DNA from: Prostheceraeus crozeri
Lineage: Eukaryota > Platyhelminthes > Polycladida > Euryleptidae
Assembly (NCBI GenBank): GCA_907163375.1
Contig: CAJQUW010009257.1
Coordinates: forward strand, 248,001-312,000
Direction of reading: 5' to 3'
Length of the DNA stretch: 64,000 nucleotides
Shown: positions 3,819 through 52,430 of the stretch, one piece after another
Numbering within the stretch: the stretch's first letter is position 1
Layout of the letters: the number at the start of each line of letters is the position of its first letter
Translations under genes and position numbers: made by a program
Notes under the pieces: generated by a model
Told to the model about the DNA's origin: nothing
Seen by the model: only the letters and a program-made list of their open reading frames with translations
Databases searched by the model: none

Positions 3819-4071
3819 GATAATGCTTGAAAATATCGCATGATATCTATACTCTATGACATTAAAAATGATCCACTTGATGTAGAAAATCTCAGTGGAA
3901 GTGGACGACTTTTATTTCATACTGCACTGACCAGGATGTCTATGCATCAAATTTGTCATGCTAATATGAAGCAGCTGTCCATTATCGATATCTTTGGCAT
4001 AGTTGATGCATTTCAAATTCGACCTTTTATCACTATCAAGCAATTCTTTCTGACTAAATTTTGAAGCAAAA

Positions 4072-31100: not shown

Positions 31101-33508
31101 CGAATTTCAATTACGGTTGATTGATAATTGATTGAAAAGATGCAATACGTTTTTGATGATCCAGCTAATAACTTGTTGTTCATAATTTGTCATGGTCCTG
31201 TTCGATCTTTCTTGATATAGCGAGAATTGAAATTCCGCTCAAGTATCAGTATCATTCAGTGGCGGCGCCATTCGATTTCGAATCGTGCGACTTATTGCAC
31301 GATTAATTGAAAATCACGCGATTCTGAATAGTTTGAAATTTTCTTAACTTCAGGGATTAGAAGTTTGTAGTTCGTCTAGCTTTTGGATTATTATTTTTTA
31401 GACCATTAGTTTCATTACAAAGTTGATAATTTTCAATAAAATCGAGACTATGAAACACTTGCTCTATTTAGACATTAAGGTTATTGCTACCCTACTCCTA
31501 TTTATACAATTGTAAACCAAAACACACAAAAAATCTTGTGAATATATTGCTAAGAATCTTCTGCAAATCTGTGCAGTGCTAATTCTAAGTAAATATTGAT
31601 TAAGTTGGTAAACCGATACCATTAGGCTTAAATGTGGCATTCATGCAATCAATGACAAGTTATGCCACTTTCTTGATGAAATACTCTCGCCTCTGAGTAT
31701 CCGTTCATTTCCATTATGAGTTCTACATTTAGTCGCCTAGAACTGAGTAGTCTTAAGTTTTTTGATGTTCATCAAATCTGTCAATCCTTTGCATGCATCA
31801 CAATCAAGGATGATAGCTGGCTGATTTGAAGTGATACGTCAAGTTTTTGCTGTTGTGAGATATGAGAGAGAAGTCTTTATTTATTTCAGGACATACGATA
31901 TTTTCATTATTCCGTTTTCGTTTACGTGTTTTGGTGTAATTTACTTCTCGATAATTTTGATGATTCGAAACTTGTGCGAGGCATCTTGCCGCCACCGGAA
32001 AGAGTTCTTTTTACTATCAGACCATGGCAAAGAAGACCAAGAAATCAGTGGACAGAGAATGATAAGTGAAGTGTCTATCCAGCTATGTTAATAAGTTCAG
32101 ATTAGATTCTTGATGGGTAGTCAACTGACGAACAGCTTTCGACCAACCTCGACGATGAAAGGTTTGTTTTGGCACGCATTCGTTGATTTGTTTGTTTCAT
32201 GTATTGTTGCATGATTGATCGAGACACCCAAAAATTCCATTGAACATAATTCGGTGGCATAGAAATTGATACATTAAGACATAAAAATTTATGTCAGACC
32301 CGTAGTAGTGAATCGATGACTGATATTGATGTTATAGTTCAAGTTATGCTACCATCCTTATTTTCTCATCAATTCATGCCACTTAAAATTACAAGCTCAA
32401 AGATATTCAATTGTTTAAAAGGGCTAGATGAGAAAAAGATGCCTAAATTTGAGCCCATTTTAGTACGGTCCTTATCGTGGCAAAAAAAGCATTACGGCAA
32501 TGGGGCGAAATTGCTGTTTTGTCGGCTGTGCGATGTGCGATGCGACAAAAAGCATTAGAAATGGTATATGATGTAAAGCATAATTCACTGATATTATGTG
32601 GCAGGTTTCAAGAATATCCATTCAGCAGTTTCTCTGAAAAAAATTGTTGAAGACGATGGCGGTTTACGGCAATTTAATGCAGCACTATCAATTTGGAAGA
32701 AAAATATTCAGATGAAGACTGATAGGTTATTGCGGAACAGTCAACTCCCTCAGTAGAATTCATGACTATCAAGAAATTCAGTGAGAATCCGAATATTAGA
32801 CTGAGGAATTGGCTATTAATAAGGCTTACCCATGTCAACAACGCTCTTCAAGTTATTCACCAAGTTGAAACTACAATATTGATCTATGTATTGCAAATAC
32901 ATAGAGAGGGCATTTTAATAGGTCCAAGTGGAATCGATCATCGGATGTCTGTCAATGTCAAAGATGTTGTCAATGTGCATTTTTTGTGTATTGAGCTTGT
33001 GATATTTGCGTATAACATGCCTGTTTTTATTTGCTTAAGCCAATTTTATATCAAATTTTCTGATAGTTCACCTTTATTTTTTTCTGTTGTATCATGTAAT
33101 TTCTTAGCGCAAAATTACATAAACATGTTAGATTACTGCCAAGCTTGGCAATTGCGTCTGGCGTGGCCGGTCACCGGTGGGCACACTAACGATATACATG
33201 TTCAACCACAGCCAGGCCCCGTACTTTTTACAAACAAACAGTCTCACTGCATGGTCAAAAGGAAAGACACAGTTCATTTTTCTGTTCAGAGAAGTCATTT
33301 AGTCAAGTATTTGGTGAACTGTAAGGGAACCTCACTCTGCCTTCATCTAAAAATGAAACAATTGGTTTTCATTTGTGTTATTCCTATTTAACATGCGCTC
33401 TTCAGATTTAATAATCAGCTGACATAAAATCAAAGACAATGGACAAATACATTATCTTTGCATAAAATAATGCAATGAAGTCTGATTGAAGGAATTGTAT
33501 CAATAGGG
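28197..33508. other. AT-rich stretch, nothing securely recognised
   Basis: No gene could be supported. A GC-rich spot at 28440-28530 contains an imperfect hairpin (GCTCGTG at 28473-28479 with CACGAGC at 28496-28502, extended by GCCCG/CGGGC). At 32450-32610 a frame reads KLLFCRLCDVRCDKK followed, in another frame, by YDVKHNSLI. This might be a decayed hAT-type zinc finger, but it is too broken to annotate. Confidence 0.4.
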
Positions 33509-33695
33509 TACCGTATTTTCTCTAATTGAAGCCCCCGGCTTCTATTTTTTAAAGTTAAATTTACCCCGGCTTCAATTAGAAGTCGGCTTCTATTAGAGGC
33601 CCGGCTTCTATTTTTTTAATCGACATAACTATGATAAGAACTCTATAACTATGATGTAAAATTCTTTATTTTAGTGATTAAGGAAGCTTACCCTC

Positions 33696-34963
33696 TCAAT
33701 TGGATTCATCACTGTCGCACCATGAAATATTGTCATCGTCACTACAATCGATCGCCAGGAGATCTTCTTCACAGTCACTTTCAACTTCATTTTCAGCTAC
33801 ATTGAGTTCACTCATCGAGGAAGCCAGTTGAGTCAAACCATCCTCACAACCTCGGCCAGGTTTAAAGCAAGATATTTGTGAATCTTCCGAACCATCCAAA
33901 GAGTTCGTGATACCACATTGTTTCATTGAGTCAGATATTTGAGAATTAGGTATCGCATTCCACGATTCTCGTACCCAATCAACCAATTGATAGAATGAAG
34001 GTGGTCGCATATTCCCATTCTTGGTAAATGAATGTTCTCCGATATTTTGCCATTGATCATACTTATTTTGAATTCGTGATTTCAGTGATCGATTTCAGCT
34101 TACATCAGCTGGCTGAATAAGTCCCGTGCACCCTCCTGGAATCACAGCTGTTTGTATTCTTAATCTCCGAAGAACAGACTGAGTTGTTTGTGAAATATGA
34201 CATCTGAAAGCATCCCACACCATTAATCGCTTGGTAAAGGAAAATTCTCCAACCACTCGTTTCAAATATTCTTCTGTAAGACAATCGTCCATCCAACTTT
34301 TTGTGTTGTATTGAATGACAACATCGCTCATATTATTCAACTCCGCTATAGGTCTTTTTCTAGGGATAGCGATGAATGGTTTCAGTTTGACTCCATCACC
34401 ACGTCCAGTCAGAATTACCGTAACCCTGACTTTTTCATGACCTGCATTTTTCAATGGTACATCTAAAGATCCCTTCTTTGCGATCGTTCTTGATCCGCAA
34501 CTTTCCAGCCATACCGGGGTCTCATCCATTGCGTATATGCTTTCCAGAGGATAGTCATTTTTCATTCTCATTTGTCGAATATATAGAACAAATTGAACCA
34601 GTTTAGTTTGATGATCAGCAGGAACTTTCTGACATATAGTAGTCCTTGATCTCATGACAAATTGATTTCGCGATAGAAATTTGCTAAGCTAACCATTACT
34701 TGCCTTGAAGTTCGTGGGTAACGACAATTCAACTGATAAGGTTTGCGCCATCTTCTGAACATTTTTTCTGGAGACTCTAAGTCGTCTGTCTCTTTGCTCC
34801 ACTATCCAAGCGCGCAATTTTTCTTCCAAAAGATCAGATTGTATTCGTCGTCCAGCCCCTGTCAAACGCTTTCGTTTTTGATTGCCTTTTTGATCAGACG
34901 CCACCTTCCGAATATCGTTTTCTTGTTTTCTCCATTCTCTTATTTGTTTTCCATCAACTTTAA
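33696..34963 (-). pseudogene. Pogo-type transposase, C-terminal four-fifths
   Basis: Reading down from 34963 the frame encodes VDGKQIREWRKQ, then GAGRRIQ...LEEKLRAWIVEQRDRRLRVSRK, the second (CENP-B-type) HTH, to NFKASNG and a TAG at 34689-34691. It resumes with RSRTTICQKVP and the DDE core (34655-34095): MDETPVWLE (first Asp), GHEKVRVTVILTGRGDGVKLKPF, MVWDAFRCH (second Asp) and VIPGGCTGLIQPADV (third Asp). About 35 residues separate the last two Asp. A TGA at 34095-34097 then interrupts before NRSLKSRIQNKYDQW. The C-terminal part (to 33696) contains SFYQLVDWVRESW, MKQCGI and an acidic tail. Both stops fall where family members commonly have Trp, suggesting single-base decay. The N-terminal piece lies beyond the insertion at 52059-52165. 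Confidence 0.87.
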
Positions 34964-35011
34964 CCCTTTCGCTGCTGAGGCAAATTTTGTCTCATTCCCT
35001 CAGGTGCGGAT

Positions 35012-35071
35012 GGTAAGTTAACTTACCATGATCAACATTCTCCTCAGTGCGGGATGGTAAGTTAACTTACC
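35012..35071. repeat. Two subterminal palindromes of the piggyBac element
   Basis: The perfect 16-bp palindrome GGTAAGTTAACTTACC occurs at 35012-35027 and 35056-35071. Each is preceded by a similar CTCAG(G)TGCGG(G)AT segment, giving a direct repeat of about 30 bp. A diverged copy lies just inside the other terminus (52027-52042). The position suggests transposase-binding sites, which is inference. Confidence 0.65.
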
Positions 35072-37861
35072 ATTGATAAGATCACTCATCTTATCACCTA
35101 AAACCCATGTTCGAATGCAAATGACACATGTTCAACTTGTTTCTCTTCATTGCTTTCTCAACTCCTTTATGCGCCCCACGGCGAGCGCTGATGTTTTTTC
35201 TAATATCTGACATTCTCATTATCTCATTCTACTGATAAGGTGTCAAAGCTTTGAAACCGCTTTCTGAAGAAGTTGCTATTTAGCTCCAAATTGCTCGCAC
35301 ATTATCAAATTGACGGTTCCCTTGTTCATTGGTATGAAATTCAGGTATGCGTGGTCATAAAGAAGCGATCATTTTTCCATTGGCTTCGAGACTTTTTGAT
35401 CAACATAATAATCGGTATTCACTATTCAGAGATAATTTATTGCAGTGAGACATTTCTTGCTGCGGACATTTTGCATCCATTTGAGTGACATCGTATTGAA
35501 TTACGTCTCTCGTCAATAAAAAGATGATAAGAAGTAGAATATCAGAAATTTTAAATCGAAAAACACAGGCGCTAGAACGCAAAGAAATGACTTGATAGAT
35601 GATAAGAAATTTTATTTTATCATCGATTTGCAATAACACATTTTATTTATACATTCTTTGTCCGATACACCGTTATCGGTTTAAATTAAATTAAGTGTGT
35701 GCAGTTTCAGTGAGGTGATGTCATGCATCTACATATGGGCGAACAAGTGCATACAAAACTATACGTCTAAAACCGCCCTTATTCAGGTTCTCGTAGTATT
35801 TTTGAAATGTTCTGTTGTTAATCCTTTGTTGACAAGAAACTGCCATACGCGCATATCAGTGGCGGCTTGCACCACAAGCAAACTTATTTAAACTATAATT
35901 ATTAGCATATTTATTATTACAGTCGCCATTGCTATTCAAGCGACTACCTGATTCTGTGATGTAAAATCAAAACCTATTTCACGAAAGGGTGAATATTTCC
36001 AAAAAAGTTACCTTTATTCGAAGTCAGCTCCTACCTTTCTCATGATGATATCTTTTCTTCTGTACTATTATGAAGCATTCTGAATTTGTTTGTATAGTTT
36101 GATTTTCATTTACAAATTCATATATACTTTCTATACTTTCTATGAGAGACACATCCGAATATATCATAAAATTGTTCATATTTTAGGACGACTTAGTTTG
36201 GCGCTTTCGACAGTGATTTTTCTAAACAAACTTGCCAGTGAATTCTTTTGTCCTTCTCATAAAGACTGTCAATGACCTTTTTCACATACATGTGCTGTTT
36301 ATTGACAGATGACAACTAAACAAAGTTTGAAATACTATTATGGAAAATTTGTCGTGAGATCTTCCTCCACAAAAACAAGTTCAACGTTTATAACCCCTGA
36401 AAATAAGAAATCGTCCAATGGGAGGTAAATAATAAGATATTGAAACGATTTCATGAGAAAATGATGCGAATAAGCGAAAAGGGCTTGATACGTCGAAAAT
36501 TCTATCTGGGATAAAAATCCTAATTTGAAAAAAATCTGAATATCAATTGAGTTTTGAGTTCTGGAATACAAACGTTGAGACCTCTTGACAGTGCTAGATT
36601 TCAGCTCGATAGTAGGGGGAAGTTTTCGACCGGAAGTTTTTGGAGTCAACGTCGTAACTAAAGCCGGAAAAAAGTGGTGATCAAAAGGAAAAGGACATCG
36701 ATTCTTATAGCACCAATCTCATCCTCGCATCTATAGAATGCACGCGAATAATTTTAAAAATGCTCGCATAAATGGAAACCATAAATGCAATGAGGAGGAG
36801 ATAGTCATATTTGATGCTTGAAAGGGATTCCCCAATGCATTCATTTAGTAATAATTCCTTTTAATAATTCCATTAAGCATTTTCTCCAACTTGAATTCCT
36901 TTGTCATCTTTCTGAACAAGGAAAGTTAATAATTGATGATTAGACAATTAAGTTTATGAAGAATCGCGAGGAAATTAGTCCTACACCTATCAGTGTTGCT
37001 CATAACAAAAGTAATAAATTAATGCTCAGTCAATCTAGTTGAGGCAATGTAAGGCCTATCTACTGAAATTATTCTCCCCCCGTCAGGAAATAAAGGCATA
37101 TCTTCAGTACCGGGGATGAGACGAGACAGAGCATAGAGGTGAACTTCTGCACTTTCCTGAACACAGATTCCTGGCGTCATTCACCAAAGACAGCGTTTGA
37201 GCAATTTGACTCATTTGAACAAAATCACATAAAAATTCGTAAAGGTTGATTAGGTCGCGTGATCACGGTCTGAGTGAGTAGCATTGAAAATTCTCCGGAT
37301 GACGTCATCACATGAAAATTACGCTCCCTGGAGGCATGCCCTCTCTGTTCCATGTAAAACTGTCCATGTGCGAAATGATTAACTCGTTCAACGATGCTGT
37401 ACTTTGCAATGGCCCGCTTATTCCTAGCTGAAATGGGAAAGCTAACCTGGTCGAGAGAGAAGCGATACCACATACCTGTGAGCCTGTGAACGAGACGAAC
37501 TTGTTGACTGTATATACATTTGCCAGTTTGATAAATACGTGCGACTGACTGATGCTAGTTGTAGTAAAATAAAGAATAAGAAGTAGAAAACTAGAAAGCG
37601 TAGCGGATTAAAAGTGATAAATTTAAAGTCAGCTATTCGTGAATCTGAAAATCAGTGGAAGCATTTTCATCAATATTGTGCATATTGATGAATTATGATC
37701 TTAAATATAGGACTATAAAATCAATGTCACGATTCATGATATCGATATTATAAAATAGAGTCCGATCCTATGTGTATTACATAATTATGATTATCATTTG
37801 CAATATTAACAATAAGAATGAAATAAAATAAACGATAGATCAAACTGTCATGGAAAAGATG
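35072..37861. other. PiggyBac interior, left part, no gene recognised
   Basis: An AT-rich stretch without a recognisable domain. About 37060-37600 has some features reminiscent of a long terminal repeat (TATATA near 37511, AATAAA-like sites near 37566), but no partner copy was seen. Confidence 0.35.
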
Positions 37862-37908
37862 TGCGACTGTTGGGATTCGAACCTACGACCGCAGGCCACC
37901 TAGACCTG
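37862..37908 (-). other. tRNA-derived fragment with intact B box
   Basis: On the minus strand GGTTCGAATCC (37883-37873) is a perfect RNA polymerase III B box. It is preceded by GGTGGCCTGCGGTCGTA and followed by CAACAGTCGCAC, as at the 3' end of a tRNA or tRNA-derived SINE. The T stem does not pair properly, and no A box lies at normal distance, so this is a fragment and not a functional tRNA. Confidence 0.5.
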
Positions 37909-40148
37909 AACTTTGTCTTCATAATAAAGAGAAAAAGAGTAAATTTCAAGAGTGGAATAAGCCTTAGTCAATGCGTTGTATTTTGATGCGAGAAGAGGAA
38001 AACAACTTTGTTGGCTCGCATCCATCGATGTAATGAACGAACAGTCACAATGTCTGACAGCTACACTGATGGCAAGATAGCACATTACAGACCGACAGCA
38101 GTCACAAAGAAAATGGGAATCCTCCACTAACTGTGGACTGTCTCAGATGAAGAGATTGTCACACACAGTCATTCACATAGTCATACACAACACAATGAAA
38201 AATGATTTTAAATAATAATGACATTGAATTTCATTTATGACAGTGCTACTTCAAATAACAAACGTAATTCAAAAAGTAGCTTGCGGAATCGATGGAGACA
38301 GTAGGATTTTGAAAGTTTCATAGCCTTACTGTATTCCCGAGAACAGTCCCGGACAATTTCGGGTACTAATTTCAGAGAGTTAATAGGACTAACCATGTGA
38401 CAATGATGTCATTGTTCTGCTATAACATAAATGTAACACATTCATTAAATTGTGATTTATTTTGCATTACATAGTTCGCAATTACTTGTCTTTATTTCAT
38501 CTTCAATTAAATTAGTAGTGTTTCAATGATGGAGTATTTGTTGAAGAGATTGACTGAAGAAGTTAAAAATCCTGATATTTTTCGTTTCTTTGAATTTCAG
38601 TCACATTCTTTCAGCCTTATATAGGATAACCTTATTCTGATAAACAATTTTTAAAGGAAACTACAATACATTTTGAAATTACAATCAACTATTAAACATC
38701 CTATAAACTTTAAAATATGATTTTTTGAAACATTAAGCTTTTTGAGTTAATCATTTATTTACTGCACTTATTTAAAAAAAAACTCTTATGCTGTGCGATT
38801 GATTGGCAAAAAGTCAACAATCTAATGAAACGAAAGAGGCACGAGTATAGTTACATTCAAGTTGCATTCAAATTTATTCAGCCCCTGATAATTTTGAACA
38901 TCGAAATCCGATGCTCTGTGTTATTAAAGGACCAGCACGGACATGCATTTTCGAAACTGACTTTTAGGTGGCATGTGTAATGTGATATGATCATTTATGT
39001 ACAACAAATGTCAATTCCATTCATGAAGTGCAATCTGAACCTAGCAGTGGTGAAAGTACTGTGATTAGCAACTCTGACTGTCCTTCTTGAAATTCAAAAC
39101 CGGTGCGATGTCTGATCAATATTGATTAAGCCGGATACAAATCCGATTTGCTGGTCACCTCAAATCAGAATAAACAAATACCGGTATTCAAAGGTTTTCA
39201 TAAATGAGGCAGAAAATATTTTGTGTGCAGCGACGAAGATATTAGGTGGCACTTCGTCCTCTGCGACAGGCTTCCGGACGTCCACTTTTGATGGAAACTC
39301 CCTTATTTCTCCATCACAATGTGCGACAGACAGCATGTTTTCAAATGTTTATCAATTGTACGCAACTGCAAAAGTCACCAAATTTTATATCGGAAAAGAG
39401 ATAAAGATAGAGGATGAGGTCTGCAGTGTGTCATAATATGACAACAAGAGCAATGTGTTGGTTGCATTTAATGTATTTACAGTGGCGTGCGGATGCGGTG
39501 CATGCGACCTCACTTATATTCTGAAAATTAACCATTTTTATCCCTCCCAAGATTGAGGACAGTTTGGCTCAGAATATCGCATAAAATCCAATAGAAAGTC
39601 ATTTCATTGAGGGAGATGACATCTAAAGAGCTTTAACAACGGTGAGGCATCGCCCCATTCACTGGTGCTATCTTTTTACATTGACCAACTCGCAGTCTGT
39701 GCACGCTGTCTTCTCGCACAGCTCCTATACAAAAGCCTGTGAAATTATATAGTGGCTACATTCGGCGAAATTGTCGCATCGCTCACTTTAGGGAAAATGA
39801 TACAGATAGCCCAGATCTCATCAGACTGACTTGTGTGCATGTGTATGCATTGCATGAGCCAGTCCGATGTGTTATTATTGGTCATCCATCACCAGAAAAG
39901 AACAAAGCGTTGTCTGATGTACGATGCAGAACTGTCTTGGACATTTTATGCTGTCAATTGGTTTACCGATCTGGCAGAATAAAAAATGTTGTTGAAGCTG
40001 GGCGACCGATGCCCAAAATGAAGTTCAAATGAAGACCGAAACGCTGAAAGACGAAAAGGCGTACATTCGTCGATACGACGATTTTTCCATAGTGGTTTTG
40101 AAACCCAAGTCTAAATGTCCATTGAGAAAACTTCACTTGTAACCTTCG
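37909..40148. other. PiggyBac interior, no gene recognised
   Basis: Plus-strand frames at 39122-39436 and 39739-40032 have no motif I can name. The N-terminal half of the piggyBac transposase, with the first catalytic Asp, would be expected upstream of 40897, but I could not find it here. Confidence 0.35.
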
Positions 40149-40784
40149 AATGATGTAGGAAGGCTTTTTCTATCATAATGTCATTTGATGACTTCGTTAA
40201 AAAGTCAAGGAGGATGGATTTCAATTTGAGGTAATTTCGTGAATATTCGCGTTACGTGTTAGCGCCATTTTCAATATCGAATATGATACATGCCATAGCG
40301 TGCAAGGAATGATGTAGGAAGGCTTTTTCTATCATAATGTCATTTGATGACTTCTTTAAAAAGTCAAGGAAGATGGATTTCAATTTTAGGTAATTTCGTG
40401 AATATTCGCGTTACGTGTTAGCGCCATTTTCAATATCGAATATGATACATGCCATAGCGTGCAAGGAATGATGTAGGAAGGCTTTTTCTATCATAATGTC
40501 ATTTGATGACTTCTTTAAAAAGTCAAGGAGGATGGATTTCAATTTTAGGTAATTTCGTGAATATTCGCGTTACGTGTTAGCGCCATTTTCAATATCGAAT
40601 ATGATACATGCCATAGCGTGCAAGGAATGATGTAGGAAGGCTTTTTCTATCATAATGTCATTTGATGACTTCTTTAAAAAGTCAAGGAGGATGGATTTCA
40701 ATTTTAGGTAATTTCGTGAATATTCGCGTTGCGTGTTACCGCCATTTTCAATATCGAATATGATACATGCCATAGCGTGCAAGG
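40149..40784. repeat. Tandem repeat, four units of 159 bp
   Basis: Units start at 40149, 40308, 40467 and 40626, each opening AATGATGTAGGAAGGCTTTT and closing CATAGCGTGCAAGG. They differ at only a few positions (for example TTCGTTAAAA in unit 1 against TTCTTTAAAA in the others), so amplification is recent. The period is a multiple of three, so a minus-strand frame stays open for 72 codons across about one and a half units. I do not take this as coding. The array lies about 110 bp upstream of the piggyBac transposase reading frame. Confidence 0.92.
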
Positions 40785-40896
40785 ACAAGGTCTAACTTTG
40801 AACGCATGGACATTTAGAAAATATCAAATTCTGTGTCTGCATATCACATGCCTATCAATAAGTAGCACCGCACGTAACTGTGTATTTATATATTGA

Positions 40897-41787
40897 TATG
40901 TACATGCACCTGGATATGCAAGTATCCTCAACTTTGACTTCCATTCCATGAAAACTGAGCATGATCGTTTTGCTCAATACGCAACAGCTCTCAGCCCCTC
41001 CGAACGGATAGTGGTGCATTTGTCGGAAGAATACCTTGACCTCGGGTATCGCATTTTCGCTGATAATTGGTTTGCAAGCGTGCGGCTAGCTTCTTATCTG
41101 CTTTCTCGCCGAACTCACTTCACGGGAACAATTCGTCCAAACCGCGGTGTTCCTCAAGATCTTGCAAATAGCATCAAAAAGCATTCGAAGTTTGCCACGA
41201 ATGGAAACTTGATCGTTTCAAAATTCTGTGACAAAAAGTATAGTGGAGTAAAAACAGTGTACATGATCGACACTTTTAACAAGGCAACCCTTCACTCGAC
41301 GGAAAGAATTGTGCGAGGAGGTGAGAGGATATCTGTAAGAAAGAGTGTCAGTATGGTGGACTATAATATGAGTATGGGAGGTGTTGACAGGGCTGATCAA
41401 AATCTACACTCATATGATGCCACTAGGAAAAGTTACAGGTGGTTTCTCAAAGTTGGAGTTCACCTTATTCAACGACTGTGCCTGAATGCATTCATTATCT
41501 ACCGAAATTACGGTGGAAAACTGTTGTTAGAACAATATTTGATATGTGCTTCAAAATTTCTTACTGGAGCAGAAAGTCTCAACTCGACCTTTCATCTTGG
41601 TAAGCGAACTGGCCAGCATTTTCCTTCTAAGATTGAGCCAAGAGGAAGCAATCAATGTCCTACGAAACGTTGTCGTGTGTGTTACAGCAATGGAAAAAGT
41701 AAGCGCTCTTCATACATTTGCATCAAGTGCCCTGGAGATCCAGGTTTATGTTCCTCTCCTTGCTTCGAACAATTTCATTGTGGATGA
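40897..41787 (+). CDS. PiggyBac transposase, C-terminal part (PGBD-like)
   Basis: A DNA transposase of the piggyBac family, presumed to cut and paste at TTAA. The frame is open from 40897, with ATG at 40948, to the TGA before 41788. Homology already starts upstream of the ATG (GYASILNFDF). The second catalytic Asp sits in FADNWFAS. GTIRPNRGVP and SKFCDKKYSGVKTVYMID are family landmarks. The third region MGGVDRADQNLHSY holds the last Asp pair, followed by YRWFLKVGVHLIQRLCLNAF. The protein ends in the cysteine-rich finger CRVCYSNGKSKRSSYICIKC...LCSSPCFEQFH. The N-terminal half with the first catalytic Asp is not in this frame. It was either lost or lies in an unrecognised upstream exon (a possible acceptor AG lies at about 40921). 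It lies inside the TTAA-flanked element. Confidence 0.85.
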   Translation, partial: YVHAPGYASILNFDFHSMKTEHDRFAQYATALSPSERIVVHLSEEYLDLGYRIFADNWFASVRLASYLLSRRTHFTGTIRPNRGVPQDLANSIKKHSKFATNGNLIVSKFCDKKYSGVKTVYMIDTFNKATLHSTERIVRGGERISVRKSVSMVDYNMSMGGVDRADQNLHSYDATRKSYRWFLKVGVHLIQRLCLNAFIIYRNYGGKLLLEQYLICASKFLTGAESLNSTFHLGKRTGQHFPSKIEPRGSNQCPTKRCRVCYSNGKSKRSSYICIKCPGDPGLCSSPCFEQFHCG

Positions 41788-43308
41788 TTAGCGACATTGG
41801 TGAATGGTGACTAAAGATTTTTAATGCAATTTAGCCATGAGCTTTGCATTCTACCTTTTTACTCACGATGATTTCTTGCTTGCAGTGCAAGTTTTGCATG
41901 TTTGCGTATTTTCCAAGCATTCATTTCATGGAAAATTTTAATTGCTTTTATTTTGAATTAAATCTGCTTTGGTCACGCAGTAAACCAAAGGCAGGATTGG
42001 GGAGGCAATTTACTTACTTTGATAAACACAAAATTACAGCATCATCAGTGATGTGAAATATAAATGGTGTGGGTTGAGATATACTGATGGATGAAACATA
42101 CTTAGTTTGAATGATAGTGTTTCTTCTGTATTATGTCACGTAAATATACTTGCAGTGTGCACAACAGCACTGTTTGTGAATCAAAAAATCATGGGAAAGG
42201 ACTTTATTATCAATAACTGACGCCTTCATAAAATTTTAAGTAATATCCATCAGAGAACACAAGTAAGCCTATCTAACCAAAGCGCAATGCATCATGCAAC
42301 AATTTACGTCAATAAACACAATGTTCAAAATAAATTTCATTCTTAACGTTGACTCACATGCAACTATCACTGTCCAACTTTTCGGAACAATATTTCTGAA
42401 ATTACCTTGATGATAGTATTTATAATAATGAAGAATTGAATAATATCATTGAAAAATTTTGAATTACATCACTAAACTCAAATCAATGGGAAATGAACTT
42501 ATACGGTGTATTTTCTCATGATAGAAATGTATAAATTAGTTGCTAATTATCAAATTCATAAAAATTTCGATTCACCTCCGACATCCGAAGTTTTTGTACG
42601 AAGGCCAAGGAGACAAAAACGTTTGCGAACAGTGTTGTTGCTGCTGTACTGTTTAGATTAATAAATATACTGAGCAATTTGAGACAATTTATCGAATACC
42701 ACGCTCTTCTGTGTATTACTTATCAAATACACACTTGTGATGAAAATTTCATTACATTCTAAAGAAAGTGACATGGATCCTGTATAAATTGTTACAATAT
42801 TAGATTGCGAAATACAATTTCATAAAACGCAAACTAATCAAAATTTTTTATTGACATACAATTTTAAACAGCAAACAGAGCCATAAAGACAAGAGCATGC
42901 CACAAAGCATTTTACATTAGGCCTACAGCTAAGACCGAGCTCATTTGGCTGTCCTATTTAACCCTACTAGAAATTTAACCGGAAGAAGATTAAACATATT
43001 CAACGCTGGCACAATCATACAGACCACTGATAATCTGTCAGTTCGCTGTTATAACGTCGCTCATTCATTCAGTAGTAATAATTCGTAAATTCAAATAGCC
43101 AAATTCAATCATCCAGCACGAACTCAATTGACTACTCAACGAGAGATCAGTCTTTTGGCTCTAGCATCGCAAAAAGTATTGACGGCTTTCATATGAAAAA
43201 GTTGAATAAATCACATATCAGCTCGAAAGAATGCATAAATTTCAAATGACTAAAAGTGCCTTTATAATTGACTTTTAATGAATAGAAGATTTTTATTCAT
43301 TAAAGTAT
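41788..43308. other. PiggyBac interior downstream of the transposase
   Basis: An AT-rich stretch without recognisable genes. It ends at the GTAT target duplication (43305-43308) of the LTR retrotransposon. Confidence 0.4.
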
Positions 43309-43830
43309 TGTTATGACTTATACTTTTATTGAAGGACAAAAACATACGTTCCCCGATGACAGGGTCCAGTGGTACAAGCAATAACACAAAGCAGCCCTTA
43401 AAAGGGCAAGTTAGGCGTTCACAGTTCGTAATGCAGCGACAGTTCGGTACTTGACAGCAGCAGGCTTGACTGAGACAACGGGAGAGAGAATGAGAGCGCG
43501 CCGGTCCTCCAGGGCCAGTTTGTGCGCTGGGCGTGTTGGTGCGTCTTGGCTTGTCGGCGTTGCCGCTCAATCAGCCACGCTAAGAGAAATACGCCGGTTC
43601 TCGTCTCACGATACGCTAGATTTTGGGCGTCGAGCGCTCTTGGCCGGCGTTTTTAAAGTCAGTTGAGAGGGCAACAATCAATGTCATCACAGTGTCTTTC
43701 GTTGCGGCATGGGCAAGGCTCCGCGCGCGGGAGTATGGAGAGGAAACTTCACTTGTCCTTCGTTGCGGTAGGTAAAAATGATGACGCAGCAGATAATTGA
43801 AAGGAGAGAGAGAAATGAGAATGCGTCACA
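43309..43830 (-). repeat. 3' LTR (522 bp)
   Basis: It begins TGTTATGACTT and ends GCGTCACA on the plus strand. In element orientation it carries AATAAA about 20 bp from its downstream end (plus positions about 43324-43329), suiting a polyadenylation signal. Its sequence matches the other LTR wherever compared, including an identical 71-codon spurious frame. Confidence 0.92.
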
Positions 43831-44061
43831 CCTCCAACGCTCTAAATGAATAAAAATTCAGCGTGAATTTTTATTCAGAGTCAAATCAGTGATCAGTAAC
43901 AAAACTTCACTGCAGCAACGGCTCGTAGAGGCTGGGTTCCAAACTTGAGGGTATCGGATTCTTTGAAGGGATAGCAGATTTGGAATTGATTGGTAGGACA
44001 TCGAAGGGCTTGAAGGGATCGTAGGTTTTGAGGTAGCAGCAGCTTGAGTCCATGCCTGCCT

Positions 44062-47000
44062 TTAAAGACATGCGCGAGAAAGGCAGTCGGCAACCACATT
44101 GTCTCGTCCTCGTATGTGCTTGATGTCGAGGTCAAAGTCTTGAATACTGAGACTCCATCTTAGGATCCGCATATTCCTATCCTTCATTTTGTCCATAAAC
44201 ACAATTGGGTTATGATCGGTAAGAACGACAGTCCGAAACGCAGTATTACTCAAGTATACAGAAAAGTGTTTTAGCGCTGAGATCAAGCCATATGCTTCCT
44301 TTTCTATAGTTGAATAACGTTTTTGGTGCCTATCAAATTTTTTTGAAAAGTAGGACACTGGGTGATCAACCTCGTTATGATTCTGTGATAAGATGGCTCC
44401 AACTCCTAAATCACTTGCATCTACAGTAAGGATAAATGGTTTTTTCATATCAGGAGACTTTAATACAGGAGGAGACGTTAATAACATCTTAATATTCTGG
44501 AATGATTTTTCGCATTCGTCAGTCCATAGAAATTTAACCTTAGCACTGGTTAGGTTAGTAAGTGGCGAAGCAACTTGAGAAAAATTTCTACAAAAACGTC
44601 TGTAGAATCCAGCCATGCCTAAGAAACGCCTTAACTCTCGTTTAGTAGTAGGACGAGTGAAGTTACAGATTGACTCAACTTTTGATTCAATAGGTTTAAC
44701 TGAACCATATCCTACTTCGTGACCGAGGTATTGAACTAGTGCTTTTCCAAACTCACACTTTTTCAAGTTGATAGTAAGGTTGGCGGAATTTAGTCTAATC
44801 ATCAAATTTTCGATTTGATTAACATGATTGTCCCATGAGGAACTGAAAATGACTAAATCATCAAGGTAAGCAGCACAACCTTCTAAGCCGTTAATAATTT
44901 GGCTAACAAGACGTTGGAAAGTAGCAGCTGAATTTCGCATTCCAAAGGCCATTACTCGGTATTGCCAAAGACCATCAGGAGTGGCAAAGGCTGAACAACG
45001 CTTGGCTCTATCGGTTAACGGTACTTGCCAAAAGCCTTTCATTAAATCAAGTTTTGAAATATATTGAGCATTACCGATCATGTCAATACAGTCGTCTATT
45101 CTAGCCATAGGGAAGTTATCAGGTACAGTCAGAGCATTTAGTTTACGGTAGTCGGTACAGTAGCGACTCGAACCATCACTCTTGGGCACAAGTATACACG
45201 GTGAAGACCACTCACTTGTACTCGGCTCAATGATATCGTTTTCAATCATATACTGGATCTCTTGTTTCATTAATTTCATTTTCTCGAAATTTACTCTGTA
45301 AGGATGCTGTCGTATAGGTTTCGCGTTGTTAGTCTCGACATCATGCATTATCAGATTCGTGACTTTAGGGCTGTTACTAAATAAGTCTTTGTATTTTTCT
45401 ATCAATGAAATGATATCACATTTTTTATTATCTTCAAGATGGGAGAGATAATTATCTAAGTCGCTCAGAATGATAGAATTATCTAATTTCAGTGGAGGAA
45501 TTATGTCAGTAAAATCCTCTTTGTCATATTGAGGTATATCAGTTATCTCGCTTTTGGCAAGGACTTGTACTGGTTTTGGTTCACTTTCCAAATCTCTTTC
45601 GTGATACTTTTTTAACATATTGATGTGACAGACACGAGATTTCTTTTTGCGCTCGGGAGTTTCTACGACGTAATCGAGATTGCTCAATTTCTGTTTTATA
45701 AGGCAAGGGCCATAATATCGCGCTTTTAATGGGTCTCCTTGAATTGGCAAATAAACCAATACTTTGTCTCCCGGAGAAAAACGTCTTTCGGAAGAACTTT
45801 TGTCGTATCTGAATTTCATTTTCTTTTGTGATTCAGCAAGATTTTTACGCGCTAAGTCTCGGACTTCGTGAAGTCGTTTCCTAAAATCGGAAACGTATTC
45901 AAGTAAACTGCTTGATTCAGCATGGTCAGTTTTTAGCCATGTTTCTTTAAGCATTTTCAATGGACCACGAGCTTCGTGACCAAATACTAAATCAAAAGGA
46001 CTGAACCCTAAAGATTCCTGGACAGTCTCTCGAGCAGCAAAAAGCACTAAAGGAACACCCTGACTCCAATTTCGGTCATTTTCATGGCAATATGTTCTTA
46101 GCATATTCTTTAGGGTTTGGTGAAATCGTTCGAGAGCTCCTTGAGACTGAGGGTGATACGCACTAGAAACAGAATGAGTTATATTAAGCTCATATAAAAC
46201 TTGCTTGAAGACTTTCGAAGTAAAATTACTTCCTTGATCGCTTTGTACGGTTCTTGGTAAACCAAATAATGAGAAAAATTTGATCAAAGCGTCTATCACT
46301 GTCCTAGCAGTAATGTTTCTCAGTGGAATAGCTTCTGAGAAGCGTGTCGCAGAGCACATAATAGTGAGCAAGTATTGAAAACCGCGTTTACATTTTGGAA
46401 GAGGCCCTACACAGTCAATAATAACGCGACTAAACGGCTCATCAAAGGCCGGAATGGGTTGGAGAGGTGCTTTCTCGGGTTTTGAGTTTGGTTTGCCAAC
46501 AATTTGACAGGTATCGCAACTTTTGCAATAATTAGAAACGTCTGACATAATCCCTGGCCAAAAGAAGTGTTTCATTATTCGAAATCTTGTTTTTCTGACA
46601 CCTAAATGTCCAGCCATGGGATGATCATGTGCCAAACTGATAATTTCTTTGCGATATGGAGTAGGTACGACAATTTGATTAATTACTTTCCAGTCCTCAT
46701 CAGCAGGTGCATCAATAGGACGCCACTTGCGCACCAAAACGTCATCTTTTAGAGAATAACTTGGAACTTTCTCTGTGTCTGCAGTTTCAGCTAGATTGAA
46801 TAACTTCTGTAAACTGTTATCGGACTTTTGATCCTTGACTAGAGTCTCGCGATCTAGTTTTAGGTTTACGGAATCATTTTCAAGAACTAGACACCTTTTA
46901 GTTCCCTTGACATCGGTGTCAAATAAAAACGTTTCACTGAGATCAATTTGGTCATTATTGTTTACCATTTCTTTTGCCTTAGATCTAGTGACAGCGCAAG

Positions 47001-47538
47001 CTGGGAATAAATTATCGTCAGTTACTGTAACATCTACAGGTCTGTCTGTCATAATTGGCGTAAACACACTAGCTCCCATGAGATCATTACCGAGTAACAA
47101 ATGAATTCCCTGAATAGGTAACTCATTGATAACACCGACTTTTATCGGTCCATTGATAAGATCAGATTTCACGTGCAGTTTGTGCAGAGGCACTGAAACG
47201 CGCCCCGTAACACCTTTTATGGGAACTGTTGACTGAAGGAAAGTATTATCGGACACAGGAACAACTCCTTCAACAAGTAATGACTGATAGCAGGCTGAGT
47301 CTCGCCATATCTTTATGGGAATTTGACTATTTGTGTCAATACCTATGGAACCAAACGTGGTAAAGGCTTTTTCACCTTGCTCAATTAATAATTCCTCACT
47401 ATTTTTTGACACTTGTAATTCCTTAGCATCTTTCGATTTCTGAAACTCAGTACTTTTATTATGATCAGTTATTGTAATTGCAACTTGTTTACTGGAAGAT
47501 CTTTCTTCCTTACGTTTGAGAACCCAACAGTCAGTCAC
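44062..47538 (-). CDS. pol: Gmr1-like Pol polyprotein: protease, integrase, RT, RNase H
   Basis: An intact 1158-codon frame supplying all enzymes of the retrotransposon. The protease has the active-site D-S-A at residues 80-82 and an LLLGNDLMG box at 147-155. Integrase has a HHCC finger (H304, H311, C338-C344), catalytic D375, D434 and E470 (35 residues between the last two), and a GPY/F-like end near 608-640 (YYGPCLI). The RT spans about 735-935, with CTDYRKLNALT, LDLMKGFWQV, MAFGMRNSAATFQRL and YLDD at 891-894. RNase H follows with D1040, E1079 or E1081, and D1108. Integrase standing before RT is the copia order, but RT and integrase motifs are Ty3/gypsy-like. The frame's first residues (TDC) supply the last Cys of the Gag zinc knuckle, so gag and pol were one frame before the hAT insertion. 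The ATG at 47538 is therefore not the native start. Confidence 0.92.
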   Translation of the reverse strand: MTDCWVLKRKEERSSSKQVAITITDHNKSTEFQKSKDAKELQVSKNSEELLIEQGEKAFTTFGSIGIDTNSQIPIKIWRDSACYQSLLVEGVVPVSDNTFLQSTVPIKGVTGRVSVPLHKLHVKSDLINGPIKVGVINELPIQGIHLLLGNDLMGASVFTPIMTDRPVDVTVTDDNLFPACAVTRSKAKEMVNNNDQIDLSETFLFDTDVKGTKRCLVLENDSVNLKLDRETLVKDQKSDNSLQKLFNLAETADTEKVPSYSLKDDVLVRKWRPIDAPADEDWKVINQIVVPTPYRKEIISLAHDHPMAGHLGVRKTRFRIMKHFFWPGIMSDVSNYCKSCDTCQIVGKPNSKPEKAPLQPIPAFDEPFSRVIIDCVGPLPKCKRGFQYLLTIMCSATRFSEAIPLRNITARTVIDALIKFFSLFGLPRTVQSDQGSNFTSKVFKQVLYELNITHSVSSAYHPQSQGALERFHQTLKNMLRTYCHENDRNWSQGVPLVLFAARETVQESLGFSPFDLVFGHEARGPLKMLKETWLKTDHAESSSLLEYVSDFRKRLHEVRDLARKNLAESQKKMKFRYDKSSSERRFSPGDKVLVYLPIQGDPLKARYYGPCLIKQKLSNLDYVVETPERKKKSRVCHINMLKKYHERDLESEPKPVQVLAKSEITDIPQYDKEDFTDIIPPLKLDNSIILSDLDNYLSHLEDNKKCDIISLIEKYKDLFSNSPKVTNLIMHDVETNNAKPIRQHPYRVNFEKMKLMKQEIQYMIENDIIEPSTSEWSSPCILVPKSDGSSRYCTDYRKLNALTVPDNFPMARIDDCIDMIGNAQYISKLDLMKGFWQVPLTDRAKRCSAFATPDGLWQYRVMAFGMRNSAATFQRLVSQIINGLEGCAAYLDDLVIFSSSWDNHVNQIENLMIRLNSANLTINLKKCEFGKALVQYLGHEVGYGSVKPIESKVESICNFTRPTTKRELRRFLGMAGFYRRFCRNFSQVASPLTNLTSAKVKFLWTDECEKSFQNIKMLLTSPPVLKSPDMKKPFILTVDASDLGVGAILSQNHNEVDHPVSYFSKKFDRHQKRYSTIEKEAYGLISALKHFSVYLSNTAFRTVVLTDHNPIVFMDKMKDRNMRILRWSLSIQDFDLDIKHIRGRDNVVADCLSRACL

Positions 47539-47546
47539 ACGGTGAC

Positions 47547-49530
47547 CAGTGGCGTATCCAAGGGGGGGACACGGGGGAATGTCCCCCCCCCTCTGAGAGA
47601 TATGATTTTAACACATGAAGAAGAAGGAATAAGGAGTGCACAATCAAACATACATTCTCACATTCTTGAGTTAGTGCTTGATTTGGAGCTTGATCTTGTG
47701 GAGTCTTGTGTCAGATTGTGACGTTGCTTCGATAGCCATTGCCGATAGCGCCGAAAGCCGATAACACAAAAACAAACCAGCAGTGGCGCAGCGTGCGTAC
47801 TTGTTCCACGTATTCAGTGAATACCTGAATATATTCCACTGTGTACTGTTAACTTAATGAATCATATCTATTAATAAATAGCTTTTTGTTTTAAATAATT
47901 TTGGTCTTTTGAAAAACAAAAAAAAAAAAAAGAAATCTCATTTATTATTAATACAGAATTGATTTAAAGGCTCATTAATTGCATCAATCAATAGCTATTT
48001 GGTCTTTGTATGTCTTTGTCTTTCTTTTTCTTTTCCTTTGCTCTAAACTTTCCGAACGTGTTCCATCACCATGTCCTTGATTTCAATCACCCTCCTCGAC
48101 AGTTTCTTTGTTCTTCTATCTCATTCTTATAGCATTTTATTGACTTGACCATCTGAAACTATGACTGTGAGTATTCCAATCGTTGAATGAATTCTCATCT
48201 ATTCATTCGTAATATAACATCATTCATAGGATAATCGTGTTACAATTCACTCAATTCGGACTCACAAGACAATAACTTTTTTCGAACCCCAGCCTAAGAA
48301 ATTCATTTTGTGGCAGGCCATGGAAGAAGTTCAACATGTAACTGACATCTTCAGGTCTTGGGAAACTGACATCTTCAGGGTCATAATGAATTACGCAGAA
48401 GCGATACAGCTGAATCCTGCAGATTCATTCGAAAGCTGCAGAAAGATTCAAAGACGAACGACTGACATCAAAGGCGATCGAAAACGTTCGACCGAAATCA
48501 AAATAATCGAAATCGATCTGATTATTACAGAAAAGCTACATGGTTTCCTTTGGTTGATGCAATCATCTCACAGTATCACGAACGTTCTTCAGTATCCTTT
48601 CAAAAACTGCCCTATCTATGTCAAACTTCAAACCAGATCGAGTTGCCGATGTCATGCAAATAAGATATGACTTCATATATTGAAAATAATAAACTGTAAC
48701 TTGAATTCTAAGAATGGAATCGTTGATGGAATTAACGATATGGCAGCGAAAAATGAATTCAATTCCTAAACAAATCGCGAATGATGGCATTCTTGTGGAA
48801 GTCCTGAATTCCCTATCGCTGATTAAGTCCCTAATATTGTAATTCTTGAAAAGTTACCTAATATCTCCCAGTAACTCGCAGTGCTTCAGAGCGGTCGTTC
48901 CAGCTTCATCTTTCAAAGTAAAACGTACCTCCGATCAAGGAATGAGTGAAGCAACAATCGTCAATTGACTTTGCTGGCATACACAAACACATAGGATGAC
49001 TTTGCTGGCAATACACCAAGACATTCCAATGGAGGAAAGACACTCACGACTCAAATTGTAATTATAATACTTTAACTTAAAAGCTTCACGTCGTAAATTA
49101 AATTGTAATACGTTAAGTGAAAAAAACGTTTTTTGCTCGTAAAAGTATATTGGTAAAGCCAAAAATATTTTGTTTTTTTTAGCTCAGGTTCTGATAAAAA
49201 GATTCTTGCATCTGAGATATATTGTAGAATACATGTAACACTGTCACGATAATATAACTGTTGTTTACAGAAGATGCTACGTGTACCAATATTACTGTTG
49301 AAATCAATTTTATTTATTACGGGTATATAAATGTGGGTTCATAAAAAATCAGGATTAGCGAAAATGATTATGAAAAATGAGATTAAATTAATCGAAATAT
49401 TTACGCGAAAATGAATAAATAATTATGATTATTATATTTATTTATATTAAATATGCTGATGCTTCTATGTAGGCCAAAAAATCTATTATTAATTTTGTAC
49501 CCCCCCTTTAATCTTCGGTGATACGCCCTG
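47547..49530. mobile_element. hAT-type element, 1984 bp, nested in the LTR retrotransposon
   Basis: An exact 8-bp target duplication ACGGTGAC lies at 47539-47546 and 49531-49538. The left end reads CAGTGGCGTATCCAAGGGGG and the right end, inward, CAGGGCGTATCACCGAAGAT. Both are hAT-like and near a G-rich tract. The interior has a poly-A run at about 47920-47933 and a 120-codon plus-strand frame (48308-48670) without any recognised domain. No transposase core was seen, so it is non-autonomous or strongly decayed. It is the youngest layer of the nest. Confidence 0.85.
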
Positions 49531-50544
49531 ACGGTGACCTCTCTTTTTGCAATATTTGCATTCTATTGCTTTTCCTGTCAGTTTCTTTATATCACTCACA
49601 ACAGGTGGTGATGTAATAATTTCGTGTTCCCCTTTATTGAAAATTTTCTGGGGCTTCTGGTCTGCCAATTTGTGAGTCAAATCATACTGATCTGCCGCTC
49701 TTGCGGCATCTTGCAGACTAGTTAAATTTCTCTCATTGAGATACGCTCTGATGTTGGTTCCAGTACAATTTTTGAACTGCTCTATAAGGATAATCTGTCT
49801 TAAAGAATCAAATGTTTGAACATTTGCTGAAGAGCACCATTTATCAAAAAGAATTTCTTGCTCTTTTGCGAAATCGAGATAACTACTTCCTACATCTTTT
49901 CTTTTGTTTCTGAATTTTTGACGATAGGCTTCAGGAACCTTTTCGTAAGCTTGTAGTATCTCTAATTTTACGACATCATAATCCTTAGCGCTGAAATCTG
50001 ACAACGCAACGTAGACTTTTTGAGCCTTTCCAGTGAGAGCTGTCTGTAGCAATAAGGGCCATTTTTCTTTTGGCCATTTTGAAGCAATAGCTACACGTTC
50101 AAAATTTTGGAAAAATATTTCAACGTCATTTTCGTTAAATTTAGGAACCAATCGAATTTGTGTAGCCAAATCTACATCAGAATTTTTAGAAGCGTATGCG
50201 TGTTCGAGTCTCAGTTTTTCCAATGTTAATTGCTGCTGCATTTTCATTTCCTCAAGTTTCAATTTAAACTCTTGCTCAATACGAATTTTTTCAAGTTCAA
50301 GAATATGCCTTTCATTTTTGCTTTGATCGGAATCGTTAGTAGTGCTACTGTTTTCTGAATTTGTTTCGCCAATATTGAAATGAGTCATTAAAGCGTTAAT
50401 AATCATGTCTTTGCGCATCGATACGGTTACTTCAATGTCAAAATGTTTACTAACTTCAATTAATCGAGCCTTAGTACAAGACCTAATCTGATCGACAGTA
50501 GGATTTTCTTGAATTTGTTTGATTAACTCTTCAACAGAATCCAT
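49489..50544 (-). CDS. gag: Gag polyprotein of the Gmr1-like element, truncated by the hAT insertion
   Basis: The structural protein of the retrotransposon starts at ATG 50544, about 140 bp downstream of the primer-binding site. Residues about 80-120 are a charged coiled coil (ELEKIRIEQEFKLKLEEMKM). A capsid-like region follows (LVPKFNENDVEIFFQNFERVA, then a block with FAKEQEILFDKWC). The C-terminus has CKYCKKRGH, the first three ligands of a CCHC knuckle. Native coding ends at the hAT boundary (49531). The last 14 codons to 49489 come from the hAT end and are spurious. The fourth ligand lies in the Pol frame at 47530-47532, in phase across the insertion. The current product lacks a complete knuckle and its link to Pol. 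Confidence 0.88.
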   Translation of the reverse strand: MDSVEELIKQIQENPTVDQIRSCTKARLIEVSKHFDIEVTVSMRKDMIINALMTHFNIGETNSENSSTTNDSDQSKNERHILELEKIRIEQEFKLKLEEMKMQQQLTLEKLRLEHAYASKNSDVDLATQIRLVPKFNENDVEIFFQNFERVAIASKWPKEKWPLLLQTALTGKAQKVYVALSDFSAKDYDVVKLEILQAYEKVPEAYRQKFRNKRKDVGSSYLDFAKEQEILFDKWCSSANVQTFDSLRQIILIEQFKNCTGTNIRAYLNERNLTSLQDAARAADQYDLTHKLADQKPQKIFNKGEHEIITSPPVVSDIKKLTGKAIECKYCKKRGHRQGVSPKIKGGVQN

Positions 50545-50683
50545 TTTTAAGGATGTTAGTAAAAATACACTTAGAAGCGAGAGTAATTTCTTAAGTTACA
50601 AACTTGACGCAACTGACGAATGATATAAACTTAAAATACTAATAGCTTACTCAAACACTACCACGCTCAGGACTATCGATCCT

Positions 50684-50701
50684 ATCCCGGCTGAGCCCCC
50701 A
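50684..50701 (-). promoter_or_regulatory. Primer-binding site, tRNA-Pro-like
   Basis: In element orientation TGGGGGCTCAGCCGGGAT starts four bases after the 5' LTR. It ends complementary to a tRNA CCA terminus and differs from the known tRNA-Pro primer site (TGGGGGCTCGTCCGGGAT) at two positions. The primer identity is inferred. Confidence 0.65.
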
Positions 50702-50705
50702 ATTA

Positions 50706-51227
50706 TGTTATGACTTATACTTTTATTGAAGGACAAAAACATACGTTCCCCGATGACAGGGTCCAGTGGTACAAGCAATAACACAAAGCAGCCCTTAAAA
50801 GGGCAAGTTAGGCGTTCACAGTTCGTAATGCAGCGACAGTTCGGTACTTGACAGCAGCAGGCTTGACTGAGACAACGGGAGAGAGAATGAGAGCGCGCCG
50901 GTCCTCCAGGGCCAGTTTGTGCGCTGGGCGTGTTGGTGCGTCTTGGCTTGTCGGCGTTGCCGCTCAATCAGCCACGCTAAGAGAAATACGCCGGTTCTCG
51001 TCTCACGATACGCTAGATTTTGGGCGTCGAGCGCTCTTGGCCGGCGTTTTTAAAGTCAGTTGAGAGGGCAACAATCAATGTCATCACAGTGTCTTTCGTT
51101 GCGGCATGGGCAAGGCTCCGCGCGCGGGAGTATGGAGAGGAAACTTCACTTGTCCTTCGTTGCGGTAGGTAAAAATGATGACGCAGCAGATAATTGAAAG
51201 GAGAGAGAGAAATGAGAATGCGTCACA
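50706..51227 (-). repeat. 5' LTR (522 bp)
   Basis: The same length and sequence as the 43309-43830 LTR, beginning TGTTATGACTT and ending GCGTCACA on the plus strand, then GTAT. In element orientation it would drive transcription toward gag. I see no clear TATA box. Confidence 0.92.
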
Positions 51228-52026
51228 GTATTTTCAATTAGAAGAACCACGAGCGAATTTTTCACAAACATGCAGCTCCTTCGTTAATTTCAAATTAAGT
51301 CGGTAGTCTCTTTCAGACCGCTAACTAATTCTAACATAAACATACATTGCCCAAGTTTATGCACATAACAAGTCAATAACATGCATATTATCGTCGTGAA
51401 GCACTATATCATGGCTCCATTCACACCGAGTAGCCTATATTAATATGAAAATTCAACTATCTGTAATTAATATTCTGACCTTTATCATTCAAGCCCCCTT
51501 CTTGACTTATATACTTGTTATATAAGCCTTATCTATCTACGCAATGTACGCCTATCGCTTTACACAATGAAAAATATGGATACAAAACGTGAGAAAATAA
51601 AATAGAAGTGCAGCCAGACTTCAAAATTCTATTCTGAATCTCAATCCGGACGCATAGAAGAAGGGCTAAAACCCGAACTTCTAGATGGGCTGCGTTTGAC
51701 ATATTTGCAAGCCCCTTGCTAATCCTAATGTTGGTTTAGAGATTGTGATAAGTTTGAGACTTATTCAGTGACAAAAATTTGAGAGGATGACATCCACACT
51801 TGTCTTCCGATATTCCAATAGACTTCGGTGTCAAATTTCTTATCTCTAGTATAAACAGCTTCTTGTTAACCCCACGCCGTTAATGAGCTGCATTGTAAGT
51901 GGGACCAAAACACATGTTTGTTGATTGTAACTGTCATTGCCCTGTCGGTGGATTTTACAGAGAAGCATAAAGCACTGGAGAGAATGAATGATAAAACTGA
52001 CGTAGCACAGGAGAGAATGCACCCAT
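51228..52026. other. PiggyBac interior, right end region
   Basis: An AT-rich stretch between the LTR element and the right terminus of the piggyBac. No gene was recognised. Confidence 0.4.
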
Positions 52027-52042
52027 GGCTAGTATACTTACC
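52027..52042. repeat. Subterminal palindrome at right piggyBac end
   Basis: GGCTAGTATACTTACC is a diverged copy of the left-end palindrome GGTAAGTTAACTTACC, placed 16 bp inside the right terminus. Unequal spacing at the two ends is common in piggyBac elements. Confidence 0.55.
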
Positions 52043-52058
52043 ATCAGCAGCGAAAGGG

Positions 52059-52165
52059 TTAAAAGTTCTGGCAGTCTCTTCAACACTATGATGCTTAACA
52101 AAATCTATAGCTGCAGTTTTCTCACAGATCGTGTACTGTCTTCGCTTTGCTGACATCACTGTCAC
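52059..52165 (-). pseudogene. Pogo-type transposase, N-terminal piece
   Basis: From the ATG at 52156 (or 52165) the frame reads SAKRRQYTICEKTAAIDFVK and EETARTF, an N-terminal HTH of pogo/CENP-B-type transposases, until the TTAA at 52059-52062. The continuation lies 17 kb away at 34963 on the same strand and in the same phase. Confidence 0.85.
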
Positions 52166-52430
52166 CCCTTACTGTCCAGAATGAAATGATGCCCATCTCA
52201 TTCGTAAGGCAAGACATGAGAACAAATGAGTCATCAGTTAATCAAGTTGACGACAGTATCCATGTTACGACCTGCGACTGCATACTGCATTACAATGAAT
52301 AAAACTTTTCTATTTATACCCGGCTTCTATTGGAGGCCCGGCTTCTATTTTTTCTAGTACCGTTTACCCCGGCTTCTATTGGAGGCCGACTACTATTAGA
52401 GGCTCGGCTTCAAAAAGAGTAAATACGGTA

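Follow-up and report, generated by a model that had tools for sequence, protein, structure and literature searches.

Five transposable elements nested at one locus of the polyclad flatworm Prostheceraeus crozeri, with a disordered innermost copy

The stretch of DNA analysed here, referred to as the window, comprises 64,000 nucleotides of the polyclad Prostheceraeus crozeri (contig CAJQUW010009257.1, positions 248,001 to 312,000, of assembly GCA_907163375.1; C7680:248001-312000 in our own contig numbering) and holds five transposable elements lying one inside another. From the outside inward, these layers are a ~1.4 kb inverted-repeat DNA transposon, a pogo element, a piggyBac element, a Gmr1-like long terminal repeat (LTR) retrotransposon, and a hAT element. 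The original prediction had recognized four levels, and these four stand as it placed them, but the fifth, outer layer had been missed, since the pogo element itself sits inside the ~1.4 kb element. Copies of each layer were sought in the window's own assembly, which contains 2,048,925,868 bases in 14,165 contigs.

The outermost and oldest element, layer 1, spans 32398-52721 in the window and is divided by the pogo element, inserted at a TA, into a left part (32398-33510) and a right part (52429-52721), neither assigned to a strand, whose flanks are adjacent in genomic copies. A first look with the left flank of pogo returned 1609 candidates, of which the best 40 were scored and 29 other copies were fetched. 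In 28 of the 29, pogo is absent and the two flanks are separated by no more than 38 bp; among these 28, exactly the TA is shared in 12, and in the other 16 the matches end 3-82 bases before the site. Both ends of the element were located in 17 copies and, taking the best pair of ends per copy, the eight bases outside are identical in nine, differ by at most two mismatches in 16, and show six mismatches in one (L024). Counting all end pairs, and thus some copies twice, 12 of 23 duplications are exact and 20 are near. Moreover, the two ends match each other in inverted orientation over ~46 bp in several copies. These features identify layer 1 as a DNA transposon with inverted repeats and targets of 8 bp, perhaps of the hAT superfamily, with which the 8-bp target duplication and the inverted ends fit. 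Its mismatch to the 29 other copies is 8.0-12.5% (median 10.6).

The pogo element (33511-52428) is flanked by TA at 33509-33510 and 52429-52430, its ends are alike in 20 of 23 bases, and its transposase combines DDE_1 with a Tc5-type DNA-binding domain, all of which are consistent with pogo. The left part (33511-34963, minus strand) carries the transposase frame with the Pfam domains DDE_1 and HTH_Tnp_Tc5, and the right part (52059-52428, minus strand) carries the first codons of that frame. As had been claimed, the frame continues in phase across the piggyBac element: the latter plus one TTAA measures 17099 bp (2 modulo 3), and the left piece is read in just the frame that the right piece predicts. 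Two in-frame stops occur in the left part, so that the transposase is broken in three ways, by the piggyBac insertion and by these two further stops. Among 50 candidate copies, 39 other places were scored and 29 were fetched, all of them continuous across the TTAA; 28 share exactly four bases there, and one, in which the site itself is altered, shares three. Mismatch to other copies ranges from 0.8 to 2.0%, with a median of 1.16, in the 27 of 29 copies that passed a length filter.

The piggyBac element also lies in two parts, 34960-43308 on the left and 51228-52062 on the right, both on the plus strand and bounded by TTAA at 34960-34963 and 52059-52062. Its ends are identical over 19 bases, TTAA included, and the C-terminal part of its transposase (40897-41787, plus strand) matches the Pfam families DDE_Tnp_1_7 and zf-Tnp_2. 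The TTAA target, the CCCTT start of the ends, and the DDE_Tnp_1_7 transposase are those that PMC10813416 gives for the piggyBac superfamily, and 11 of 11 other left ends examined start at TTAA. From 103 candidates, 39 other places were scored and the first 10 copies examined, all 10 of which are continuous across the GTAT where the retrotransposon lies in the window (nine share four bases, one shares three), with mismatches of 0-1.5% (median 0.5) over 400 bp. Layer 3 differs from the well-defined piggyBac of ~2472 bp given in the same source in its length, ~9.2 kb without the retrotransposon. Foreign inserts peculiar to the window copy were ruled out as the sole cause of this length, since copies on three other contigs (C8011, C5327, and C2949) span the same 8345 piggyBac bases, each in two overlapping pieces.

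Several further observations concern this element. The copy closest to that of the window (C8011:208452-217473) is 99-100% alike over the left 8.3 kb, contains no retrotransposon, and lies outside any pogo; it may be closely related to the copy that inserted here. A tandem array of four copies of 159 bp (40148-40785, plus strand) is found inside piggyBac, upstream of the long transposase frame, and overlapping match pieces in other piggyBac copies suggest that its copy number varies. Just within the left end, the perfect palindrome ATGGTAAGTTAACTTACCAT occurs twice (35010-35029 and 35054-35073); judged by eye, this pair is a candidate transposase binding site.

The fourth layer (43309-51227, minus strand) is an LTR retrotransposon whose LTRs, at 43309-43830 and 50706-51227, are identical in 522 of 522 bases and which is flanked by GTAT at 43305-43308 and 51228-51231. 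Two open frames on the minus strand meet at the hAT element: one (49489-50595) encodes Gag with a SCAN domain, the Gag part stopping at the hAT and the last codons lying within it, and the other (44062-47607) has its first codons within the hAT and encodes the remainder of the zinc knuckle followed by pol, in the order integrase, reverse transcriptase, RNase H. By Pfam, this single open pol frame includes Integrase_H2C2 (314-370), rve (391-486), RVT_1 (807-965), and RNase H (1028-1158). An integrase upstream of the reverse transcriptase in a Gypsy-type pol is described as a mark of the Gmr1 clade of Gypsy/Ty3 elements in PMC8220671 and PMC2774666, and this domain order supports a Gmr1-like identity for layer 4; in domain order and SCAN, the features compared, no difference from the clade was seen. 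Five named relatives from a sea urchin, two sea cucumbers, a scallop, and a sponge, chosen from at least 120 listed proteins, have the same domain order with SCAN, a domain that, according to PMC6525542, was likely exapted from a retrotransposon capsid.

The second continuity across an insertion concerns the Gag zinc knuckle. The hAT element plus one duplicate measures 1992 bp (0 modulo 3), and the Gag frame is the same on both pieces, of which, translated separately, one ends in CKYCKKR and the other starts with HRVTDC. Joined by a glycine codon spanning the duplication, these residues restore the CCHC zinc-knuckle spacing. In other copies the gene is uninterrupted at this point: of 177 LTR candidates, 40 were scored, and the 11 copies with LTRs 5.4-6.1 kb apart that were examined (a set without the window copy, solitary LTRs, an array on C1643, and two LTRs on C8882 separated by 30 kb) are all continuous across ACGGTGAC, with eight shared bases. 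Moreover, the LTR spacing of 7397 in the window becomes 5405 after subtraction of 1992, against 5406 in a copy on C8868. Gag mismatch to the 11 copies is 0-1.6% (median 0.14).

Two other places in the genome bear on this family. The array on C1643 (1-38749; L107 and L108) contains seven full Gmr1 LTRs in one orientation at a spacing of 5443-5466, together with a partial LTR at the first bases of the contig, and lies at the end of a contig of 120,111 bases; this head-to-tail arrangement would be a real tandem array, an assembled one-LTR circle, or an assembly fault. Another Gmr1 copy (L073, C4349:372900-375200) has, close to the site of the hAT, gained ~730 bases of foreign sequence and lost a short segment, another insertion in the same family.

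The innermost layer, and necessarily the youngest insertion, is a hAT element of 1984 bp (47547-49530, no strand assigned) between two copies of the 8-bp target ACGGTGAC (47539-47546 and 49531-49538), a site free of the insert in the 11 Gmr1 copies. Its likeness to the hAT superfamily lies in these 8-bp duplications, which are exact in all five fetched relatives of layer 5, and one of these relatives (L102) encodes Dimer_Tnp_hAT (E 5.3e-15). The window copy differs from the superfamily in that its body is disordered and no Pfam match was obtained in any frame, the longest included.

All four boundaries first proposed, with their target duplications (TA, TTAA, GTAT, and ACGGTGAC), are present in the sequence; the identities of the pogo, piggyBac, Gmr1-like, and hAT elements agree with their domains, ends, and duplications, and the frame arithmetic bears out both in-phase splits. 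The proposed search for empty copies also gave the expected result, with pogo (29/29), piggyBac (10/10), and Gmr1 gag (11/11) continuous across the respective sites. The boundaries, the duplications, the insert-free copies of each host layer, and both frame continuities can thus be read directly, and the order of insertion taken from the nesting draws its support from the duplications, split frames, and insert-free copies. From these data we infer ordinary transposition at each step. The inverted-repeat DNA transposon with its 8-bp target duplication would have inserted first, followed by pogo into a TA of that element, piggyBac into a TTAA within the pogo transposase gene, the Gmr1-like retrotransposon into a GTAT of piggyBac, and, finally, the hAT element into an 8-bp target among the Gag zinc-knuckle codons. 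The median mismatch to other copies falls inward over layers 1-4 (10.6, 1.16, 0.5, and 0.14%), as the nesting demands, and the LTRs then show no difference at all. It is therefore very probable that the nest arose through five successive transposition events at one locus.

Some observations weigh against this interpretation. The eight bases outside the window copy of layer 1, TACAAGCT on the left (32390-32397) and GACAGGCT on the right (52722-52729), are alike in only six of eight, as expected for an old insertion, and one layer 1 copy (L028) has no right flank at the pogo site. Moreover, the divergence of the innermost hAT runs counter to the nesting order, and its disordered body shows that at least part of the stretch is either not soundly assembled or not ordinary. 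That every part of the nest is a repeat and that the innermost body is suspect could suggest a misassembly of unrelated repeats as a whole, yet a false join would not leave two genes split in phase or duplicate each target correctly, and other genomic copies are continuous at each junction site, so that such an origin is hardly credible. Chance target duplications were ruled out, since genomic copies are continuous across every site.

Comparing each layer with its family, as the original prediction had proposed, gives results in keeping with the nesting for four of the layers. The check breaks down at the innermost hAT, whose similarity to its relatives across long matches is only 67-72%. Thus, among the best 40 of 141 candidates, genomic matches of at least 1.2 kb are 68-72% alike, with shorter pieces reaching 80%, and in a multiple alignment the window copy is 67.3-67.8% like five relatives. 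The family itself is young: with L102 as the query, all 40 places scored (the best 40 of 509 candidates, L102 included) are 95-100% alike, and 30 of them are full-length. By its length, ends, and collinearity, the window copy belongs with this young family, and the two have exact runs of up to 45 bp in common.

The differences between the window copy and L102 are of an unusual kind. Their alignment contains 1572 matches, 149 mismatches (46 transitions and 103 transversions, a ratio of 0.45), and 211 insertions or deletions (indels), whereas neutral decay in this genome, estimated from the 23 of 29 layer 1 copies that aligned over more than 900 bases, has a transition/transversion ratio of 1.70 and 0.20 indels per mismatch. 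Compared pairwise (ten pairs), the five hAT relatives show 82 transitions to 65 transversions and 34 indels, and simulations of neutral divergence that leave about as many matches yield ~250-300 mismatches with 77-120 indels and a ratio near 1.6. Neutral decay of the hAT body was thus ruled out by the mutation spectrum, and an exact permutation of the element by its different base composition. The same spectrum, with its excess of indels over mismatches, makes it unlikely that the hAT is a separate, old single-copy subfamily that recently moved or was horizontally transferred; the lack of any long match above 72% in its own genome, among the best 40 of 141 candidates, would fit such an origin, but the exact runs in common with the young family and the absence of a Pfam match from any hAT frame speak against it.

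The disorder is confined to the insert. The Gmr1 sequence bordering the hAT, taken to 700 bp in each direction, is 97.5-100% like that of the 11 other copies, and in seven of the 11 both sides are at least 99.9% alike. Such confinement is expected where many reads support the flanks but no more than one or a few support the insert, and the hAT insertion may thus be heterozygous or rare. Most reads, from the other allele or from other cells, would then lack the hAT and leave its body uncorrected. The reading that we consider likely is that the insertion is real and that its body is the uncorrected sequence of one or a few error-prone reads; read correctly, the copy would then look like any other member of the young family. 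The shared length class, ends, and collinear order favor such a consensus fault, as do the abundance of indels, the low transition/transversion ratio relative to neutral copies, the clean flanks, and a pol frame that is open across 3.5 kb.

Nevertheless, the pattern of changes tells partly against a consensus fault. Simulated uniform indel noise gives a similar spectrum (a ratio of ~0.5 and more than 220 indels), but only ~5-8 exact runs of at least 14 bases, against 26 between the window copy and L102, and uniform random noise alone was ruled out because, with matches about as numerous, it leaves too few of these long runs. Moreover, many of the indels exceed one base, and the number of inserted words that reappear within 50 bp is 2-3.5 times that expected (44 of 62 4-mers against 22.1 expected, 16 of 42 5-mers against 6.3, and 9 of 30 6-mers against 2.6, overlapping words of one duplication being counted several times). 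Clustering and local repetition thus speak against simple uniform noise. Changes that are clustered, partly locally repeated, and confined to the insert, with the surrounding retrotransposon untouched, could also point to true hypermutation of a freshly landed hAT within the cell, brought about by a silencing process or by error-prone repair of breaks. Such an event seems very unlikely: the total local repetition of the window copy is no higher than in the ordinary members L103 and L105, and no similar copy occurs among the best 40 of 509 places like L102, where a disordered copy would rank low.

Elsewhere in the window, judged by eye, the frames 4054-5047 and 6261-7220 resemble Tc1-type transposases, and the frame 60220-61065 resembles a RING-finger protein; a protein search with 60223-61065 found no relative at E 0.001. 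Scans of the window for Rfam families (gathering cut-off) and tRNAs gave no matches.

Nested transposons and the ordering of insertions by nesting are already known, and the nest is in this respect a clean but ordinary structure. The approach is established and automated in REANNOTATE, whose description (PMC2672092) gives repeats inserted in other repeats as 38% for human chromosome Y and 48% for chromosome 2 (Table 3). The clusters described there are alike in consisting of insertions in insertions, with the nesting level giving the order and LTR identity bounding the ages of neighbors. The present nest differs in combining five superfamily-level kinds with readable target duplications, and in that the divergence of its innermost layer is at odds with the position of that layer in the order. 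In this nest, dating by divergence would invert the order. With five element families in one genome, a fully resolved stratigraphy, and insert-free copies for each host layer, the locus can serve to calibrate divergence clocks, and it also exhibits the failure of such a clock, as the layer that is necessarily the youngest appears the oldest by family divergence. If the hAT body is a poorly supported consensus, the locus would point to a heterozygous or somatic insertion together with a kind of assembly fault that would mislead repeat dating; if the body is real, it would reflect an unusual mutation process.

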